Below the pieces are notes generated by a model, which saw nothing but the letters and a program-made list of their open reading frames with translations, was not told the origin of the DNA and searched no databases. This document shows positions 4,860 through 25,875 of a DNA stretch of 27,129 nt, piece by piece. Position numbers and translations under genes: made by a program. The DNA is from a virus, in IMG/VR virus record IMGVR_UViG_3300012005_000043, positions 1-27,129 of that record, one strand, 5' to 3'. Each line of letters opens with the position of its first letter. The first letter of the stretch is position 1.

Positions 4860-4881
4860 ATAAAGAATTTATTTTAGATTT
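4860..4881. repeat. 22-base direct repeat, copy on the queD side of the endonuclease gene
   Basis: This stretch matches 5621-5642 in the same orientation at 21 of 22 positions. The two copies bracket the VSR-like endonuclease gene, and this copy covers its stop codon. The core 15 bases (AAAGAATTTATTTTA) occur a third time at 18342-18356. Possible explanations are duplication on insertion of the endonuclease gene, or a shared regulatory element. Confidence 0.7.
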
Positions 4882-5611
4882 ACAAATTATACTTATCAAT
4901 TGTTTTATTCATTGAGATTTGTAATTCCATCCATTTAATATCTTTTAATAATTCTACTTCATCAGTTAACATTGAGGTTTTAGTATTTCTTCTCCAATTC
5001 ATTAATTTACATTCTTCATATTTTGTTTTATCAACTACAATTAAAACTGGATTATCAGGATATGTTTGGGTTACCCAATCCATTTTCATATCAAATTCCC
5101 TCTTCCAATCTTCAAAAACATAACCACTAACCTCAACAAGTATATAATCTTCAATAATAAAATCTACTATTTTATATCTACCATTGAAAAGTTTATAAGG
5201 TATCTCTCTTGTAAATGAAATATTATTTTTCTTCAAAAATTTATAAAAAGAAACCTCCATTTGAGATCTAAAGGTTTCACCATCATATAAAACTTTGTTA
5301 TGGTAAAGTAATTTAGCGGGAGTTAATCTTTTTAATATTGAACTTTCAATATAGTTAGGGTTAGTTGGTCCACTTTGAAATCCATTTTTTATTTCATTCC
5401 TAGGTTTTTTAAAAAATTCTTCATAAGTTTTCCCTCTTTTATGACACCCTCTTGCTATTTTACAACCTGGGAACTTAACTATTCTACCACATCCACATTC
5501 ACAAGGTCTAAACTCCTTACATTCTTTACAATATATTGCTGTAGGGTAAGAAGTAATAAAATCCTTTTTACAAAGTATACAGTTCCTAACTTTTAAATCT
5601 AATTTTTTCAT
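4880..5611 (-). CDS. VSR-like PD-(D/E)XK homing endonuclease with N-terminal zinc fingers
   Basis: The N-terminal 60 residues hold metal-binding fingers: C11-x2-C14 with C28-x2-C31, then the CECGCG...GC...GCH pattern (C37, C39, C41, C50, H57) common in phage homing endonucleases. The second half resembles the very-short-patch-repair-like nuclease fold: E119 in RSQMEVSFYKFL, D150 in KIVDFII and E160 in ILVEVSGY form a plausible PD-(D/E)XK metal centre. Such free-standing enzymes (the I-Bth0305I type) spread by cutting unoccupied alleles. It lies between the zinc-ribbon gene and queD, flanked by near-identical direct repeats, as expected for an inserted mobile gene. It interrupts no recognised gene. 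It could instead be a repair nuclease. Confidence 0.78.
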   Translation of the reverse strand: MKKLDLKVRNCILCKKDFITSYPTAIYCKECKEFRPCECGCGRIVKFPGCKIARGCHKRGKTYEEFFKKPRNEIKNGFQSGPTNPNYIESSILKRLTPAKLLYHNKVLYDGETFRSQMEVSFYKFLKKNNISFTREIPYKLFNGRYKIVDFIIEDYILVEVSGYVFEDWKREFDMKMDWVTQTYPDNPVLIVVDKTKYEECKLMNWRRNTKTSMLTDEVELLKDIKWMELQISMNKTIDKYNL

Positions 5612-8137: not shown

Positions 8138-10168
8138 TTATAATATAGTGAGAGTAGTATCGTTTGTGGTATGTATAACTTGTTTTTTCTTATAATTATC
8201 AGTTACCACTTTTCCTTTTATAAAACATATTGAACCAATATTTTCTTTTAATTCTTTGTAATAAGTTTCATAACTCTCATTCCACATTGTTACATAAGTA
8301 GTTACAAAATTTTCTTCAAGTGCAATCTGACAAAATGGACCTCGTTTGGATTTACGTTCTATAATTTCTTTAATACACCCTCCAACTATTACTTCTTTAT
8401 CTTGAAGTTTTGCATTTTCTTGAAGTGAATCTCCTGAGATATATTGGGTAACAAATTTCTTAAATTCTGATGTTTTTAGTACTGAAAAAAAATTTATGAA
8501 ACCAAAACCAGTCAACTCCCTCTGTCTTATTATCCATTTATATTCTGGCCACCTTTTATACTCATCAAGTTCTGGTAACAGTTTTTTATTATTTGACTGT
8601 ACGTAATATTGAACTAGTAACCTATATCTATCTTTAATATCTACAATTTTTTCAATTTCATCAAAGGCACCTGCAAAAATTAAGTTTTCAACAGAACGTT
8701 TGTTTACTTTACGTTTTTCAACTCGTTCTACAAATTCTTCCAATGAAAAATATTCTCCATCCTCTTCACGCCATGCAGTTACTTCTTCTACTGCAATTTT
8801 TCCTACCCATTTTATTGAGTTTAATGACCAGTATATTTTTTGTGTATTAATATCTGGGTAAAAAGAATCTTTTGACTTATTTATATCAACTGGTGATACG
8901 GTTACTTTACCTAATTTTTCAATCTCTGCAATTTTTTGTATTAACTCATCTGATTCTGAGAACTCAAGTGCAGTTGTCCAAAATTCAAGTGGGTAGTTGT
9001 ACTTATACCACTGACTGTAATAACCTAGTAATGAATAACATACAGAATGTGATAAATTGTACGTATAGCAGCCAAACCCACATAACTTCTCCCAAATTGC
9101 ATTTGCCTCATCTTCAGGACAATTATTTTTTAAGCATCCACTTATAAATTGATCTTCATATTTTTTAAGTGCTGCAGGTGACTGGAGAACCATTGCTTTT
9201 CTTATACTATCCGCTTCTGTTAATGTAAAGCCACCTAATATTGTGGTAATAGACATAATCTGCTCCTGATAAATAGGGAATCCGTAAGTTTCTTTGGTCA
9301 AGTCCTCAAGCATATAATCATACTTAATTTCTTTCTCACCCTTCTTTACCTTTATCAGGTCTATATGAGCATTCATAGATATAGGACCTGGGCGATATAC
9401 TGCAGCAATTAAAGATAGTTCTGAGACATTTGAAGGCCTGAAATCTTTACAGTATTGTATTAATCCGGAAGATGTGAATTGGAATACATCCTGATTTAAG
9501 CCTTCTTTAAACAGGTCAAAAACACCCTCATTTTCAAGGTCAATATCATCATAAGTCAACTGTTTTCCTGTATGAAGAAATATTAATTCATTCATACGCT
9601 GAAATTTATCCAGTTGCTGAAGTCCTAGTATATCGAATTTTAAGAAGCCCATTGAAGAGATTCCATATACATTCCATTCTGAAACTATTTGCCCATCAAC
9701 TTTTTTAACAGGCATCCAAGTTGAGATATCTTTATAATATCCCTCTTTAGTTTCTTTTGGTGTTATTATTGTACCGGAAGCATGAATTGAAGCAGTTGAA
9801 GGACCGTTTAATATAAGTGGTAGTTTTTCAATGATATGAGGATAATTTTGTACAAATTCCCTTAACATTGGTACATCTTTTGCATTTTTAAAGAGTTCTG
9901 TATAGTCACCTTTTGCATCAATAACAGAAGTAATATAGTTAGATTTTTGTGATTCTATACCATATTCTCTATTTAATGCCTTTACTGCTGCTTTTATTTT
10001 AAAAGCGTTATATGAACCCATTCCAGTAACAAAACCAAGACCATATTTATCTCGTATATACTGTTCTGCAATAGGTTTCATTTTTGTACCGAAGTCACAA
10101 TCAATATCAGGAAGTGAAGAGGCGACTACTTTTTGACGTTCTTCTTCTTTTATTTTTATTACCTTCAT
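8138..10168 (-). CDS. dnaE: DNA polymerase III alpha subunit, C-terminal fragment (catalytic)
   Basis: This is the C-terminal half of a DnaE-type replicative polymerase, 676 residues. It begins with a short lead (MKVIKIKEEERQKVVASS) and enters the palm at LPDIDCDFG, with catalytic D21 and D23; the third catalytic aspartate is D179 in FLKFDILGL. Later family motifs are IHASGTIITP, VYRPGP, YGFPIYQEQIM, YNLSHSVCYSLLGYY, helix-hairpin-helix-like segments near residue 480 and an OB-fold-like C-terminus from about 590 (VIVGGCIKEI). The PHP domain and the first palm motif are encoded by the separate upstream gene at 10206-11843, 37 bases away in another frame. The two products presumably associate, or are joined, to form the enzyme. 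Confidence 0.95.
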   Translation of the reverse strand: MKVIKIKEEERQKVVASSLPDIDCDFGTKMKPIAEQYIRDKYGLGFVTGMGSYNAFKIKAAVKALNREYGIESQKSNYITSVIDAKGDYTELFKNAKDVPMLREFVQNYPHIIEKLPLILNGPSTASIHASGTIITPKETKEGYYKDISTWMPVKKVDGQIVSEWNVYGISSMGFLKFDILGLQQLDKFQRMNELIFLHTGKQLTYDDIDLENEGVFDLFKEGLNQDVFQFTSSGLIQYCKDFRPSNVSELSLIAAVYRPGPISMNAHIDLIKVKKGEKEIKYDYMLEDLTKETYGFPIYQEQIMSITTILGGFTLTEADSIRKAMVLQSPAALKKYEDQFISGCLKNNCPEDEANAIWEKLCGFGCYTYNLSHSVCYSLLGYYSQWYKYNYPLEFWTTALEFSESDELIQKIAEIEKLGKVTVSPVDINKSKDSFYPDINTQKIYWSLNSIKWVGKIAVEEVTAWREEDGEYFSLEEFVERVEKRKVNKRSVENLIFAGAFDEIEKIVDIKDRYRLLVQYYVQSNNKKLLPELDEYKRWPEYKWIIRQRELTGFGFINFFSVLKTSEFKKFVTQYISGDSLQENAKLQDKEVIVGGCIKEIIERKSKRGPFCQIALEENFVTTYVTMWNESYETYYKELKENIGSICFIKGKVVTDNYKKKQVIHTTNDTTLTIL

Positions 10169-10205
10169 GCCTCAAAATTAATATTTTTCTTTTCTACTAA
10201 TTTAT

Positions 10206-11843
10206 TTATTGCAAAATAAGTTCATCATCTTCAACTAAATCCTTAGCAAGAATATCATATAAAATACCCCCTCTTTTTACCTCAACCATAGAATCCTCAT
10301 CAAATTCTTTAATTGTACCATCTTCAAGTTCTATAAAGTAGTGTTGGTATTTTACATCTTTAAAACGACCGTCATTCAAAAAACGTTCAAATAGTAAATG
10401 GTACTTAACTGGATCAGAATTTGAAGTTATATTTAAAAGGTGTGCTATCAAGCATCCTGCTGCCGACCCACGGCCTAATCCTATTAATGCACCCTGTTCT
10501 CTACAGTGCCTCAATACATCCGCCAATATCAGAAAATAATCCTGAAAACCCCCTTTATTTATAGTTTCAAGTTCAGTCTCAAGTCTTTTATAGTATAAAT
10601 CTTCATCAAGTCCCCTACCTAAAACATATTTCTCAAAACCTTTTTCTATCAAATCATAAAAAAGATCCTCATTTGTTGCATACTTTTGACTCTCCTCCTC
10701 TGTCATTATATATTTTGGAAGAAACAAATTACCTGTACGGATTTTAAATGTACATAGTTCACCAACGTTCTTTGTATTATCGGCCGCTTCATAAAATAGT
10801 TCATACTGCCGGTCATCCTCAGAATTGAAAAGAGAAGACATTTGTGTATATATCTCCTCTCCTGATTTAAACCATTGGTCTGAGGATTGTGGTTTAAAAC
10901 CTACCCCTACTATTTTATTGAGAATTTTTTTGACTTCGTGGTCTGAGGCATCAAGGTAATAGGCATCTTGAATTAATATTGGACGTATTTTTTGTTTGTA
11001 GTTCTCAAAGTATGCCTTAATATTTTCTAACCACTTTGTATCCCTGTCATTTGAAGACCATTCTGTAAAATCAAGTTGGTAGTATAGATGTTCAAAGATT
11101 GAATACTTTTTAAGAAGAACATCAGTTAACTCAATTTCTGGTGTAAGTACACATACTAATCCTCTAGCGTATTTTTTTAGTTCTTCAAATGGTATTACTT
11201 TGTCAATTATGGTTTCTCCGTTACAATTTATATAATTAGAAATTTTGAGTAAATTATCCCAGCCCCTATCATTTATAACATAGAGTTTAATATTATATCG
11301 CTCTCCATTTTCAAGTACTGTAACAGTTTCCCCAATTATTGGTCTAATGTTTTCCTCCTCACAAATTCCTTGAAAAGAAAGTGAACCGGCTAATGTATTT
11401 TCCTCACAAACTGCAAGTATTTTATACCCTAAAAATTTTGCTTTTTTACACCATTCAGAATAATCTTTTGAACCATTCCCTAGTTCATAACCCCCATGTA
11501 TTCCAAGGTATGGAAAGTCAAAGGTAAGTTCATCAGAACATTTACCTATATGTTTAAAAAGTTCAAACTTTGGTTCAAAAGGGTCACAATGATAATAAAA
11601 ATTACCAAATTGGAAGACAACTTTACCTACACCGTTTTCTCGTATAAATTCTATTTCTTCTGCTGTATAGTAAAATTCAAAGTTTCTATCAACAAGTAGT
11701 TCACGTTCTACCCCGTCTATTTCTACAGTTTTTGGGTAAATTACCTTGTATAAAATTTTGTCAAGGTAAAATAAATCGTAGTCAATGAAATCTACATCAA
11801 GACGATTTTCTTTAATCCAATCTTCTAGTGATACTAATTCCAT
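10206..11843 (-). CDS. dnaE: DNA polymerase III alpha subunit, N-terminal fragment (PHP and first palm motif)
   Basis: This 545-residue protein is the N-terminal part of a DnaE polymerase. Residues 1-110 are an unrecognised extension. A PHP domain follows (LGIHGGYELGNGSKDYSEW, AVCEENTLAGSLSF, RPIIGETV), but the metal-binding HxHxxYS and DHG signatures are replaced by GIHGGYE and CEENT, so phosphoesterase activity is probably lost. The start of the palm is intact: GLGRGSAAGCLIAHLL at 455-470 and LLFERFLN at 483-490. The last 55 residues do not match DnaE; they contain ELEDGTIKEF and AKDLVEDDELI, a pattern reminiscent of Hint/intein beta strands. The gene ends in TAA before the catalytic aspartates, which lie in the downstream gene. 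It overlaps the kinase gene by 10 bases. Confidence 0.93.
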   Translation of the reverse strand: MELVSLEDWIKENRLDVDFIDYDLFYLDKILYKVIYPKTVEIDGVERELLVDRNFEFYYTAEEIEFIRENGVGKVVFQFGNFYYHCDPFEPKFELFKHIGKCSDELTFDFPYLGIHGGYELGNGSKDYSEWCKKAKFLGYKILAVCEENTLAGSLSFQGICEEENIRPIIGETVTVLENGERYNIKLYVINDRGWDNLLKISNYINCNGETIIDKVIPFEELKKYARGLVCVLTPEIELTDVLLKKYSIFEHLYYQLDFTEWSSNDRDTKWLENIKAYFENYKQKIRPILIQDAYYLDASDHEVKKILNKIVGVGFKPQSSDQWFKSGEEIYTQMSSLFNSEDDRQYELFYEAADNTKNVGELCTFKIRTGNLFLPKYIMTEEESQKYATNEDLFYDLIEKGFEKYVLGRGLDEDLYYKRLETELETINKGGFQDYFLILADVLRHCREQGALIGLGRGSAAGCLIAHLLNITSNSDPVKYHLLFERFLNDGRFKDVKYQHYFIELEDGTIKEFDEDSMVEVKRGGILYDILAKDLVEDDELILQ

Positions 11844-14617: not shown

Positions 14618-14658
14618 TGGTTGATAATTACTAATTATTTACTATATGGTTGATAATT
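14618..14658. repeat. 12-base direct repeat at the endonuclease/primase junction
   Basis: TGGTTGATAATT occurs at 14618-14629 (the leader of the primase) and at 14647-14658 (the last codons of the GIY-YIG gene), 29 bases apart and in the same orientation. It may be a trace of the event that placed the endonuclease gene here, in which the primase leader was duplicated, but chance is not excluded in AT-rich DNA. Confidence 0.5.
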
Positions 14659-15690
14659 TGGATTAGATCTACATAATTTCTGATGTCTATCAAAATTACT
14701 ACAACTAAAAATACCATTACAAAATTCACAAACCTTTGTCTTAGTTTTATATATTCTTACTTCTTTACTTTTTCTTAAACAATATTCTGTATGTCTATTA
14801 TAGTTACCTTTACCTTTTATTTTTTTATCACAAATTTCACAAGTAAAAACTGGGTATAAAAGTGCAGCTTCTTTTTGCCTTTGTATTTTTAGTTCTAAAA
14901 GTTCAGGATTATCTTCATAAAACTTTTTCCTTTTTTCAGTAGCTTTTTTTTGAATTTCAGGGTTTTCTTTAAAAAGTTTTTTTCTATGTTCACCTTGTTT
15001 TTTACCTTCTTCAGGATTATCTTTAAAAAATTGACTTCTTTTTTTACCTCTTTTAATTAATTCCTCAGGATTATTTTTAAAAAATTCATTAATACCTCTT
15101 TTATGTTTCTCTTTAAACTCAGGATCTTCAAATTTTTTTTTAGTTACTTCACTTTTCTTTTTAATATGTTCAGGATCTTTACATTTTTCCTTTGACTTTT
15201 CACTTACCTTTATTCTTGCCTCAGGGTTATCAATATAATGTTGTGCTATTTTAATTCCATTTTCTTTTGAAAACTCGGGATTATCTTTTAAAAATTGCCT
15301 CCTCCTTTCACTATGAGCTATAAGAAATTCAGGGTTATTTTCATAAAATTGAATATGACTTATACTTAATTTTAATATTGTTTCTTCAGTAGGAATATAA
15401 CCAATACAACCACCCCCACCAGCAGTTTTATTATACCCAATAAGTGGGTTATTTGCATCGTAAAATTTTACCCAGTATTTTTCTTTATCACTTAATTCTT
15501 CTCTTAAACAAAACTCTAAGGTTTCACAATAAAAATTTTCTTTACCAAATTCTTTAATTGCTTCCCTTAACTCTCTTCCTGAACCAATATATTTATCATT
15601 TAAATTATCAGTACGGTGCTGACCAGTATAGATCTTACCATTAACAAGGTTAGTGGTTTTATAAATAAGATTATATTTATGTATTTTCAT
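14635..15690 (-). CDS. GIY-YIG homing endonuclease with NPE-repeat array and zinc fingers
   Basis: The N-terminal 100 residues form a GIY-YIG nuclease domain: YNLIYKTTNLVNGKIYTGQH, KYIGSG, an FGKENF segment and KEKYWVKFY. Residues of about 115-270 are some nine tandem units of 17-19 residues with the core NPE (for example KDNPEEGKKQGEHRKKLF), probably helical, DNA-binding, and related in style to NUMOD repeats. The C-terminus has two C2HC-type fingers (CEICDKK...HTEYC and CEFCNGI...HQKLC). It lies exactly between helicase and primase, its ATG abutting the helicase stop codon. It starts with ATG while its neighbours use TTG, supporting a separate origin. It interrupts neither gene and contributes to no known replication step. 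Confidence 0.88.
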   Translation of the reverse strand: MKIHKYNLIYKTTNLVNGKIYTGQHRTDNLNDKYIGSGRELREAIKEFGKENFYCETLEFCLREELSDKEKYWVKFYDANNPLIGYNKTAGGGGCIGYIPTEETILKLSISHIQFYENNPEFLIAHSERRRQFLKDNPEFSKENGIKIAQHYIDNPEARIKVSEKSKEKCKDPEHIKKKSEVTKKKFEDPEFKEKHKRGINEFFKNNPEELIKRGKKRSQFFKDNPEEGKKQGEHRKKLFKENPEIQKKATEKRKKFYEDNPELLELKIQRQKEAALLYPVFTCEICDKKIKGKGNYNRHTEYCLRKSKEVRIYKTKTKVCEFCNGIFSCSNFDRHQKLCRSNPNYQPYSK

Positions 15691-24080: not shown

Positions 24081-24400
24081 TAGTCTATGTATAAATTATA
24101 TAATAAATCTCCATTTTCATCAATTTCGTAGAAGGAGCCATCGCCTGAGGTTAATGTTTGAAATAATTGTCCCGCTTCATCAATAAACCAGTTTACATTT
24201 CTGTTGTACTTTTTTAATCCAAAAACAAGGTCTGCTTGATTAACTTTTAGTTTATCAAGTACAAAGTTTATATCTGATAGGGTTGCAAAAAAAGTGTCTG
24301 GTAAACAGTTTTCATTTAAGAAATATATATGTTGGAGTTCTGCAGTAGAATTTTGGAAGTACGAATTCTTACTGTAAGTGCTGATTAATTTCTGTTGCAT
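24080..24400 (-). CDS. Unknown small protein in the baseplate region (106 aa)
   Basis: A 106-residue protein of unknown function, acidic at the C-terminus (SGDGSFYEIDENGDLLYNLYID). The N-terminal half looks helical (LQHIYFLNENCLPDTFFATL). It overlaps both neighbours by one base, which couples it to the tail genes. A minor baseplate component is a reasonable guess from position. Confidence 0.7.
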   Translation of the reverse strand: MQQKLISTYSKNSYFQNSTAELQHIYFLNENCLPDTFFATLSDINFVLDKLKVNQADLVFGLKKYNRNVNWFIDEAGQLFQTLTSGDGSFYEIDENGDLLYNLYID

Positions 24401-25875
24401 TAGGCGGCGATTTGGGATTGTGCAAGTTTTTTTAACTCAAGATTACACTTACGAGTTTCCTTTTGTTTTTCTATACCTCTTTCTAGATTTTCTAGATAAA
24501 TACTCATTAATTCAGGGTTACTTTCTCTTTCTAATTGTTTTTGTTTTTTAGTTTCAGAGATTTTCTTACTTATTTCATTTTTCTGTTCAACAGTATATAA
24601 AGATTGCCTTTCTTTGGCTTTATCTGCAAGTTTTCTTTTTATTAAATTAAGTTCTTCTTCACTTTTTTTACTAAAAGTTTCAAATTTTTTTCTTTCAATT
24701 TCTTGTTTTTCTTCTTCACTTTTATTAAAGTAATATAATTGTTTTTTTAACTTACTCTCTTCCCTTTCCTCTTTAGTTAACTCTGGTTTTTTATAAAGTT
24801 CTGGATTATTTTCTCTTTCAATTTTATTTAGTCTTTTAGTTTCTTTTATTTTTTCTTTAATTTCTTGTTTTCTTTCAAGTGTTACAGTCTCATAATAATT
24901 TTTAAAGTTCTCTTGAATAGGTACTTTATAACTTTCTTTTTTCTTTTCTTTTGTTAACTCTCTTTGTTCAGGAGTTCTTTTTGACCAAGTTTCTTTCTTT
25001 TTCTTAGTAGCTTGTTCCTGTACTTTTATACAATACTCAGGATCTTCTAATAATTTTAACTCTTTATTTTTTCTTCTAGATTCTAATAGTACTTTATTTC
25101 TTCTTTCTTTTTCTTCTTCAGATAATAAACTATATTTTTCCCTATAATTCTCAGCTCTTAATTTTAACTGTTCAGGTGTTTCTTTTTTCTTATTTTTTAA
25201 CCCCTTAGCTCTTTTATTTTTTTCTAACTCTTTTTCCTCATCACTTTTTAAAGAATAAAGATACTTCATTTTTTCAGATTGTTTTTTTAATTCATTTTCT
25301 CTAACTTCTGGGGGTCTTGAATTAAATTTTTCCTTTCTTTTTTGTTTAGAAAGTTTTATTTCTTCCTCAGTTCTTGACTGTAAAGTCAACTTTCTTTTAG
25401 TAATACTTTTTTGTTTTTCTTCCGGAGTTTTTTTTAATTTAGCTTCTATACGTTTTTTATTAATTAAACTTAATTCCTCTTCACTTTTTTTAGCCATAGT
25501 TTCCTTAAACTTTTCTATTCTCTTTTTAATTAACTCGGGAGTGGTGGATAATCTTATATAATTTTCTCTTGCTTCTTGATAAGTTCTAGAGGAAACTGTA
25601 TGGTCTCTTCCTCTTTTTTTACTAGTATTTTTAACACAGCACATAGAAAAAAAAGCGTGTGCTAATTTATAGTTTTCAGGATAAATTCTATATAATAACC
25701 AATGACAAATGAAATGTTCCCGGGAGCGGAGTAAGACTTTGTTAAATTTTTCTTCACCCCCATTCATACACTTAGGTAAAATATGGTGCTCTTCAAAATA
25801 AATTTCTTTATTACGTTTCCTATTTTCAGATCTAGCTTTTTCTATGATTTGATTATATACTTTTTGATAGTCCAT
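24400..25875 (-). CDS. HNH homing endonuclease with a long charged repeat array
   Basis: Residues 25-60 form an HNH core: YFEEHHILPKCMNGG (H30/H31), FNKVLLRSREHF with N45, and H54/H58 in EHFICHWLL, as in many free-standing phage homing endonucleases. From about residue 110 to the end the protein is a lysine/glutamate-rich array of roughly 20-residue units with S/TxEE starts (such as SEEEKQEIERKKFETFSKK), likely long helices that bind DNA. At 491 residues it is far longer than usual HNH enzymes (150-250). It lies inside the tail block, between the baseplate J-like gene and the 106-residue gene, overlapping the latter by one base. It does not split a recognised gene. Confidence 0.85.
   Translation of the reverse strand: MDYQKVYNQIIEKARSENRKRNKEIYFEEHHILPKCMNGGEEKFNKVLLRSREHFICHWLLYRIYPENYKLAHAFFSMCCVKNTSKKRGRDHTVSSRTYQEARENYIRLSTTPELIKKRIEKFKETMAKKSEEELSLINKKRIEAKLKKTPEEKQKSITKRKLTLQSRTEEEIKLSKQKRKEKFNSRPPEVRENELKKQSEKMKYLYSLKSDEEKELEKNKRAKGLKNKKKETPEQLKLRAENYREKYSLLSEEEKERRNKVLLESRRKNKELKLLEDPEYCIKVQEQATKKKKETWSKRTPEQRELTKEKKKESYKVPIQENFKNYYETVTLERKQEIKEKIKETKRLNKIERENNPELYKKPELTKEEREESKLKKQLYYFNKSEEEKQEIERKKFETFSKKSEEELNLIKRKLADKAKERQSLYTVEQKNEISKKISETKKQKQLERESNPELMSIYLENLERGIEKQKETRKCNLELKKLAQSQIAA

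Follow-up and report, generated by a model that had tools for sequence, protein, structure and literature searches.

Domesticated Hint domains, among them Hedgehog and the bacterial intein-like domains, keep their autoprocessing chemistry. Naturally split inteins lying in fractured genes were reportedly described by Dassa et al. in 2009, a study cited in PMC11766414. In T4-like phages, enzymes are likewise found in pieces: NrdA of phage Aeh1 is split by mobE and gp43 is split in Aeromonas phages 25 and 44RR, the pieces are linked with homing endonucleases and thought to reassemble non-covalently, and their assembly has been termed an open question (PMC2988022). A split dnaE is also already annotated, as two DNA polymerase III alpha genes, in Cellulophaga phage phiST and in Tenacibaculum phage Larrie; Benler et al. 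grouped the phiST dnaE with Gratiaviridae, and the main text of that study does not mention the split (PMC8008677). Here we analyze IMG/VR virus record IMGVR_UViG_3300012005_000043, a stretch of 27,129 nucleotides (positions 1 to 27,129, hereafter the window), in which the C-family polymerase DnaE is encoded by two genes, dnaE-N and dnaE-C. We propose, with a probability of roughly 0.77, that the extra residues on either side of the break descend from a split intein and now dock the two polymerase chains non-covalently.

The window shares with naturally split inteins in fractured genes (here contigs L169-L175) the insertion logic, the split point between the N-terminal and C-terminal intein halves (IntN and IntC), the strands at the break, and a host protein encoded by two genes. 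Unlike them, it has no catalytic residues, no splicing, and no endonuclease gene between the halves, and it is shorter by about 45 N-terminal and 25 C-terminal intein residues. The host would be reusing the intein fold, as it does in domesticated Hint domains, but the remnants in the window have lost the chemistry and would contribute association only. The T4-like enzymes resemble the window's DnaE in being essential replication enzymes made as two chains; unlike it, they have no reported intein-derived docking halves (PMC2988022). The split dnaE genes of phiST and Larrie have a homologous tail and head at the same split, hold a position on our tree independent of the window (p = 3.6e-5 against a joint clade in the approximately unbiased [AU] test), and are given no intein origin in their annotation or in the literature we searched. 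That literature, which left most subscription papers outside and so does not prove novelty, yielded no report of intein halves at the ends of a split dnaE and none of splicing-dead split inteins serving as docking modules.

The two-gene DnaE of the window

The features of the locus, in the order in which the two chains are read, are as follows.

10206..11843, minus strand: dnaE-N, an open reading frame (ORF) of 545 amino acids with the PHP domain, the first part of the palm, and the probable IntN remnant at its end
10374..10397, minus strand: the LLFERFLN motif on the N-extein side, the final conserved polymerase residues of dnaE-N, from the homologue alignment
10209..10373, minus strand: the probable IntN remnant, dnaE-N residues 491-545, with its core YFIELEDGTIKEFDEDSMVEVKRGGILYDILAKDLVEDDELILQ from 10340 down, from the tail profile and the PDB profile search
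10169..10205, minus strand: a spacer of 37 bases with in-frame stops and GAGG just 5' of the dnaE-C start, from the sequence
8138..10168, minus strand: dnaE-C, an ORF of 676 amino acids with the rest of the palm, the fingers, HHH, and OB (PF07733, PF17657, and PF14579)
10118..10168, minus strand: the putative IntC remnant, MKVIKIKEEERQKVVAS, in which the start of IntC is retained and blocks F and G (His-Asn) are gone, followed by Ser at +1; assigned from its position, the aligned heads, and the model of relative L037, in which the head is predicted to supply strand five of the joint sheet
10094..10111, minus strand: PDIDCD with two catalytic Asp residues, immediately after the IntC remnant, from the alignment

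The two genes lie in different frames, 37 bases apart (10169-10205), and between them hold the PHP, palm, fingers, HHH, and OB domains and the three catalytic Asp residues; judged by sequence, the pair is a complete C-family polymerase. dnaE-N matches PF02811 (PHP) and covers positions 5-461 of the 463 in phrog_13169, and the palm/NTPase domain PF07733 is interrupted, with Pfam profile positions 5-98 in dnaE-N and 99-260 in dnaE-C. The break falls in the loop between FERFLN and PDIDCD, just ahead of the catalytic aspartates, and D21, D23, and D179 of dnaE-C are invariant among the split homologues. In dnaE-N, LLFERFLN (residues 483-490) is followed by 55 extra residues, which we call the tail; dnaE-C begins with 18 extra residues (MKVIKIKEEERQKVVASS), the head, and continues with LPDIDCDFG. 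A first-pass annotation made from the letters of the window had described a DNA polymerase III alpha split just before its catalytic aspartates, and its counts of 55, 18, and 37 and its change of frame are all exact. A frameshift or an error of sequencing or assembly is excluded, because the same split with related tails recurs, far beyond chance, in several named phages and in dozens of IMG/VR contigs.

Evidence for intein descent

The tail belongs to a family common to many Bacteroidota-type phages: 41 distinct split tails and 32 distinct heads were collected from all sources together, with the tail consensus [YF]xxELEDGxxxxxxxxxxxVxRxGxxxxxxAxELxEGDxI and M[KR][VI]xxI at the start of the heads. 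It is therefore no unique linker, as the first-pass annotation had allowed. Whether the extra residues might instead be an ordinary part of single-chain DnaE can be answered in the affirmative for one relative only, L022, in which the module is fused into a single-chain DnaE (E = 2.7e-4 for its tail part, against values above 0.07 for shuffles); most single-chain relatives are without these residues, and in them mostly just 9-17 residues separate the two motifs.

As a single sequence the tail of the window had no match in Pfam, PHROGs, or NCBIfam, and a family profile was required. A hidden Markov model (HMM) built solely from tails other than that of the window recognizes the window at E = 6e-9. 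Its values for three complete IntN are 2e-10, 2e-8, and 2e-7, and none of 8000 shuffled sequences did better than 0.028. The top five matches of the tail profile among all PDB sequences are all inteins (best E = 3.6e-4), and PF14890 (Intein_splicing) matches 7 of 21 tails (best 6e-4).

Complete inteins also occur at the very same site. Codons for HN-x-[LF]PD[IV]DxD occur in eight stretches among the 2.9 million viral contigs that we scanned. L170-L173 and L175 contain complete split inteins at FERFL../..S[FL]PDID (a slash marks the intein boundary), which is the insertion site of the window, and L174 contains an unsplit (cis) intein there. In the complete IntN, five residues separate FERFL from the initial Cys, and the half ends in ELEDGTILTSSPNHLWIVIREGKEIEVRADEIRETDEFIKML before its stop; where the stretch is present, a free-standing endonuclease gene follows, and then an IntC ending HN/SFPDIDSDF. 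One such example reads FERFLVKSKK/CLLPTTYVLA...FELEDGTILTSSPNHLWIVIREGKEIEVRADEIRETDEFIKML and a stop, then the endonuclease gene, then MKIKQINKVNLATPINLVDIGVEGDHTFFVSDKPNGNFFLTHN/SFPDIDSDF. The endonuclease gene is present between the halves in L170-L173 and absent in the window, where there are 37 bases only. The tail of the window, YFIELEDGTIKEFDEDSMVEVKRGGILYDILAKDLVEDDELILQ and its stop, is the counterpart of the final 45 residues of a complete IntN and stops at the same strand. A scan of the genome collection for HN/xLPDID gave four matches, none of them intein-like at this DnaE site.

What the remnants have lost is the splicing chemistry. Residue 1 of the window, after FERFL-NDGRF, is Lys instead of the block A nucleophile (Cys, Ser, or Thr), and in Bacteroides-type and Cbastvirus-type tails it is Gly. 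At block B (TxxH), the SSPNH of complete IntN is replaced by EFDED/DKDA-type residues. The window's head ends AS/S, without block F and the terminal (His-)Asn, and none of the 32 remnant heads ends in Asn. In the window, the loss of Cys1, of the block B His, and of the terminal His-Asn excludes splicing; under established intein chemistry neither the window form nor the Bacteroides-type form is able to splice. Decay is graded among the lineages. Bacteroides-type tails keep a recognizable block A with Gly for Cys1 (FERFL-LPERA/GLAPADTTII versus FERFL-VRKKK/CLAPHTYVMT) and lack about 30 residues after it, and their heads retain a block F-like stretch that ends HG/S, GG/S, and similar, not HN/S. 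The window and its Cbastvirus relatives have lost both blocks.

Several results weigh against this descent. The complete split inteins sit in polymerases far from the window's clade, and no complete split intein was found inside that clade. The 17-residue head of the window is too short to be significant by sequence alone, and head profiles go no further than suggestive when set against complete IntC. The head's intein case draws instead on its position, the predicted joint fold, and the longer Bacteroides-type heads. Even with these points counted, the extra residues are very probably remnants of a split intein that was once inserted in DnaE between FERFLN..R.. and SLPDID, an origin that is established by comparison. 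The first-pass annotation had seen a Hint resemblance in ELEDGTIKEF and AKDLVEDDELI, which profile, fold, and comparative evidence now confirm, and had correctly reported no N-terminal Cys and no terminal HN or SN; its suggestion of a decayed split intein appears right.

Two DnaE proteins have intein or intein-like insertions at other sites. That of L174 carries three or more intein-like insertions: one at GRGSAAG, one at the FERFL/SLPDID site, and one further downstream. L119 has a contiguous DnaE of 1432 amino acids with an apparently complete cis intein, including an HNH-type endonuclease domain, at the fingers site YGFN/../SH, and inteins are therefore active elsewhere, too, in DnaE within this phage group.

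Proposed docking of the two chains and its rivals

The joint fold was predicted with AlphaFold2 for relative L037, whose halves lie in one frame with a single TAA between them; tail and head could therefore be folded as one chain, with the stop read as Ser and with the window's tail and head included in the alignment. Four strands of the tail and a fifth from the head are predicted to form one sheet, with a predicted local distance difference test score (pLDDT) of about 93. A Foldseek search of the PDB with this model has inteins in each of its first 19 places, with a probability of 0.97-1.00 down to the sixteenth. Its leading matches in the viral library include the phiST polymerase tail alongside terminase and ribonucleotide reductase proteins. 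When the whole two-half L037 polymerase is predicted (mean pLDDT 90.6, predicted template modeling score 0.82), the strands of the module reappear intact. A Hint-like fold formed jointly by both halves is thus what the model predicts, for linked halves in one relative. Two aspects of these data count against docking: with so small a module the Foldseek E-values are weak (0.019 and up), and the linking of the halves in L037 would itself favor contact.

Charge and substitution patterns are consistent with an association surface. Net charge is negative in 40 of the 41 tails (mean -8.7) and positive in 28 of the 32 heads (mean +1.9), the window having -9 and +2, and split inteins are known to capture one another through the polarity of an anionic IntN and a cationic IntC (PMC11766414). 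The pooled ratio of nonsynonymous to synonymous differences (pN/pS) is 0.32 in the tails and 0.25 in the polymerase body over 148 pairs of related N-halves, which is a sign of constraint and not a fine measure, because the pairs are non-independent and most are saturated; in near-relative pairs with unsaturated synonymous sites, the corresponding rate ratio (dN/dS) of the tail is about 0.03-0.3. The sequences point to purifying selection on the remnants.

Under the scenario that we favor, an intein at the DnaE site would have split and then lost its endonuclease and catalytic parts, the splicing active site (block A, TxxH, and blocks F and G) being trimmed and the association surface retained. 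The two polymerase chains would be translated separately and remain separate. In the manner of the "capture and collapse" known from split inteins, the acidic IntN remnant would capture its basic IntC partner. The two would close into one truncated Hint-like beta fold, which would set FERFLN beside PDIDCD in the palm without a covalent link and so yield an active two-chain polymerase. Docking and activity are what we infer here from the sequences and the predicted fold. The first-pass annotation had listed a working non-covalent split polymerase beside a decayed split intein as separate options; the former appears right as well, and the two go together. If this is correct, a parasitic element has turned into a structural part of its host protein, and the T4-like question of how the pieces reassemble (PMC2988022) gains a concrete answer for one enzyme. 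It would show what remains when a split intein loses splicing yet persists, and would provide minimal docking pairs of natural origin, about 45 and 17 residues long, whose members bind each other and do not splice.

The main rival to docking holds that the remnants are passive scars of a decayed split intein and that the halves associate via their own palm surfaces. Two split phage enzymes for which no docking domain is known do function: NrdA of Aeh1 is active in its split form, and the two gp43 pieces of Aeromonas phage 25 co-purify and show activity (PMC2988022); tail length, moreover, varies among clades, and the tails diverge faster than the body. We nonetheless regard passive scars as unlikely, since neither the low pN/pS of the tails, nor the charge complementarity and joint predicted fold, nor the persistence of the same strands across lineages with separate changes of state would be expected of them. 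It is improbable that DnaE took up a small beta domain unrelated to inteins, which a later gene split then cut through: the fused copy in L022 and the insert of about 60 residues in Bacteroides phage DAC22, which the profile does not recognize, could be read in this way, but complete split and cis inteins occupy the same position with the same split point, and inteins come first among both the PDB profile matches and the Foldseek matches. Production of a covalent full-length chain, by unusual trans-splicing or by frameshift or readthrough, we consider very improbable. Class 2 and class 3 inteins do splice without Cys1, and the halves of L037 share a frame with one TAA between them; residue 1 of the window, however, is Lys, terminal Asn is missing from every remnant head, stops and a frame change lie within the window's 37 bases, and whole genes separate the halves in Bacteroides-type phages. 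A pseudogene under decay, to which the interruption of the gene within its catalytic domain might point, is scarcely credible when the catalytic Asp residues are conserved, the ORFs of 545 and 676 amino acids are intact, and both halves are conserved in many phages under purifying selection.

Distribution, ancestry, and mobile genes

We searched for split DnaE relatives by tblastn against 50,697 phage records and in two IMG/VR scans. The tblastn search places adjacent split dnaE genes in Cellulophaga phages phi13:1, phi19:2, and phiST and in Tenacibaculum phage Larrie, and finds a split dnaE in Bacteroides phage BS-TP1, where a Dda-like helicase gene separates the halves; the IMG/VR scans added many further cases. 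Chryseobacterium phage MA9V-3, the nearest relative of the window by identity, has a single-chain DnaE with an ordinary linker.

On a tree built from polymerase bodies stripped of tails and heads, the split or contiguous state changes at least six times, each change forced by well-supported branches. The AU test rejects a topology that joins all remnants in one clade (p = 1e-5) and also one that joins the window with the Cbastvirus group (p about 4e-5); the window groups with four contiguous polymerases (support 100/99). The tree is compatible with repeated gain and decay, or with one gain and repeated loss through recombination, and cannot tell these apart. We lean toward a history in which splicing-dead split inteins were repeatedly domesticated as heterodimerization modules in several phage lineages, making the polymerase an obligate two-chain enzyme.

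A variety of genes lie between decayed dnaE halves in other phages. A Dda-like helicase gene is found there in many Bacteroides-type phages, and a PAPS-reductase-like gene in L048; a GIY-YIG gene sits exactly between the halves in L041. A DNA methylase gene separates them in L006, L084, L085, and L102, followed in the first three by an HNH-like endonuclease gene. DAC22 (L005) has a single-chain DnaE whose insert at the same site is a different one and contains AAKYFEGDEL; we considered it as a further remnant and rejected it, the remnant profile not recognizing it.

The window itself contains a GIY-YIG homing endonuclease gene (14635-15690, minus strand; phrog_314, E = 1e-29), flanked by primase and DnaB helicase genes, whose product has 40% identity over 156 residues with the GIY-YIG protein encoded between the halves in L041. 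A second homing endonuclease gene (24400-25875, minus strand; phrog_655, E = 2.5e-31) lies within the structural gene block, and its product has a long lysine/glutamate-rich C-terminal part. The gene at 4880-5611 (minus strand), 0.2 kb from the ribonucleotide reductase gene, encodes a zinc-finger-like N terminus and a Holliday-junction-resolvase/EDxHD-like nuclease domain (phrog_190, E = 1.6e-5). Its relation to the endonuclease between complete intein halves is weak (E = 0.024) and is not claimed here; the gene is likely a third mobile endonuclease.
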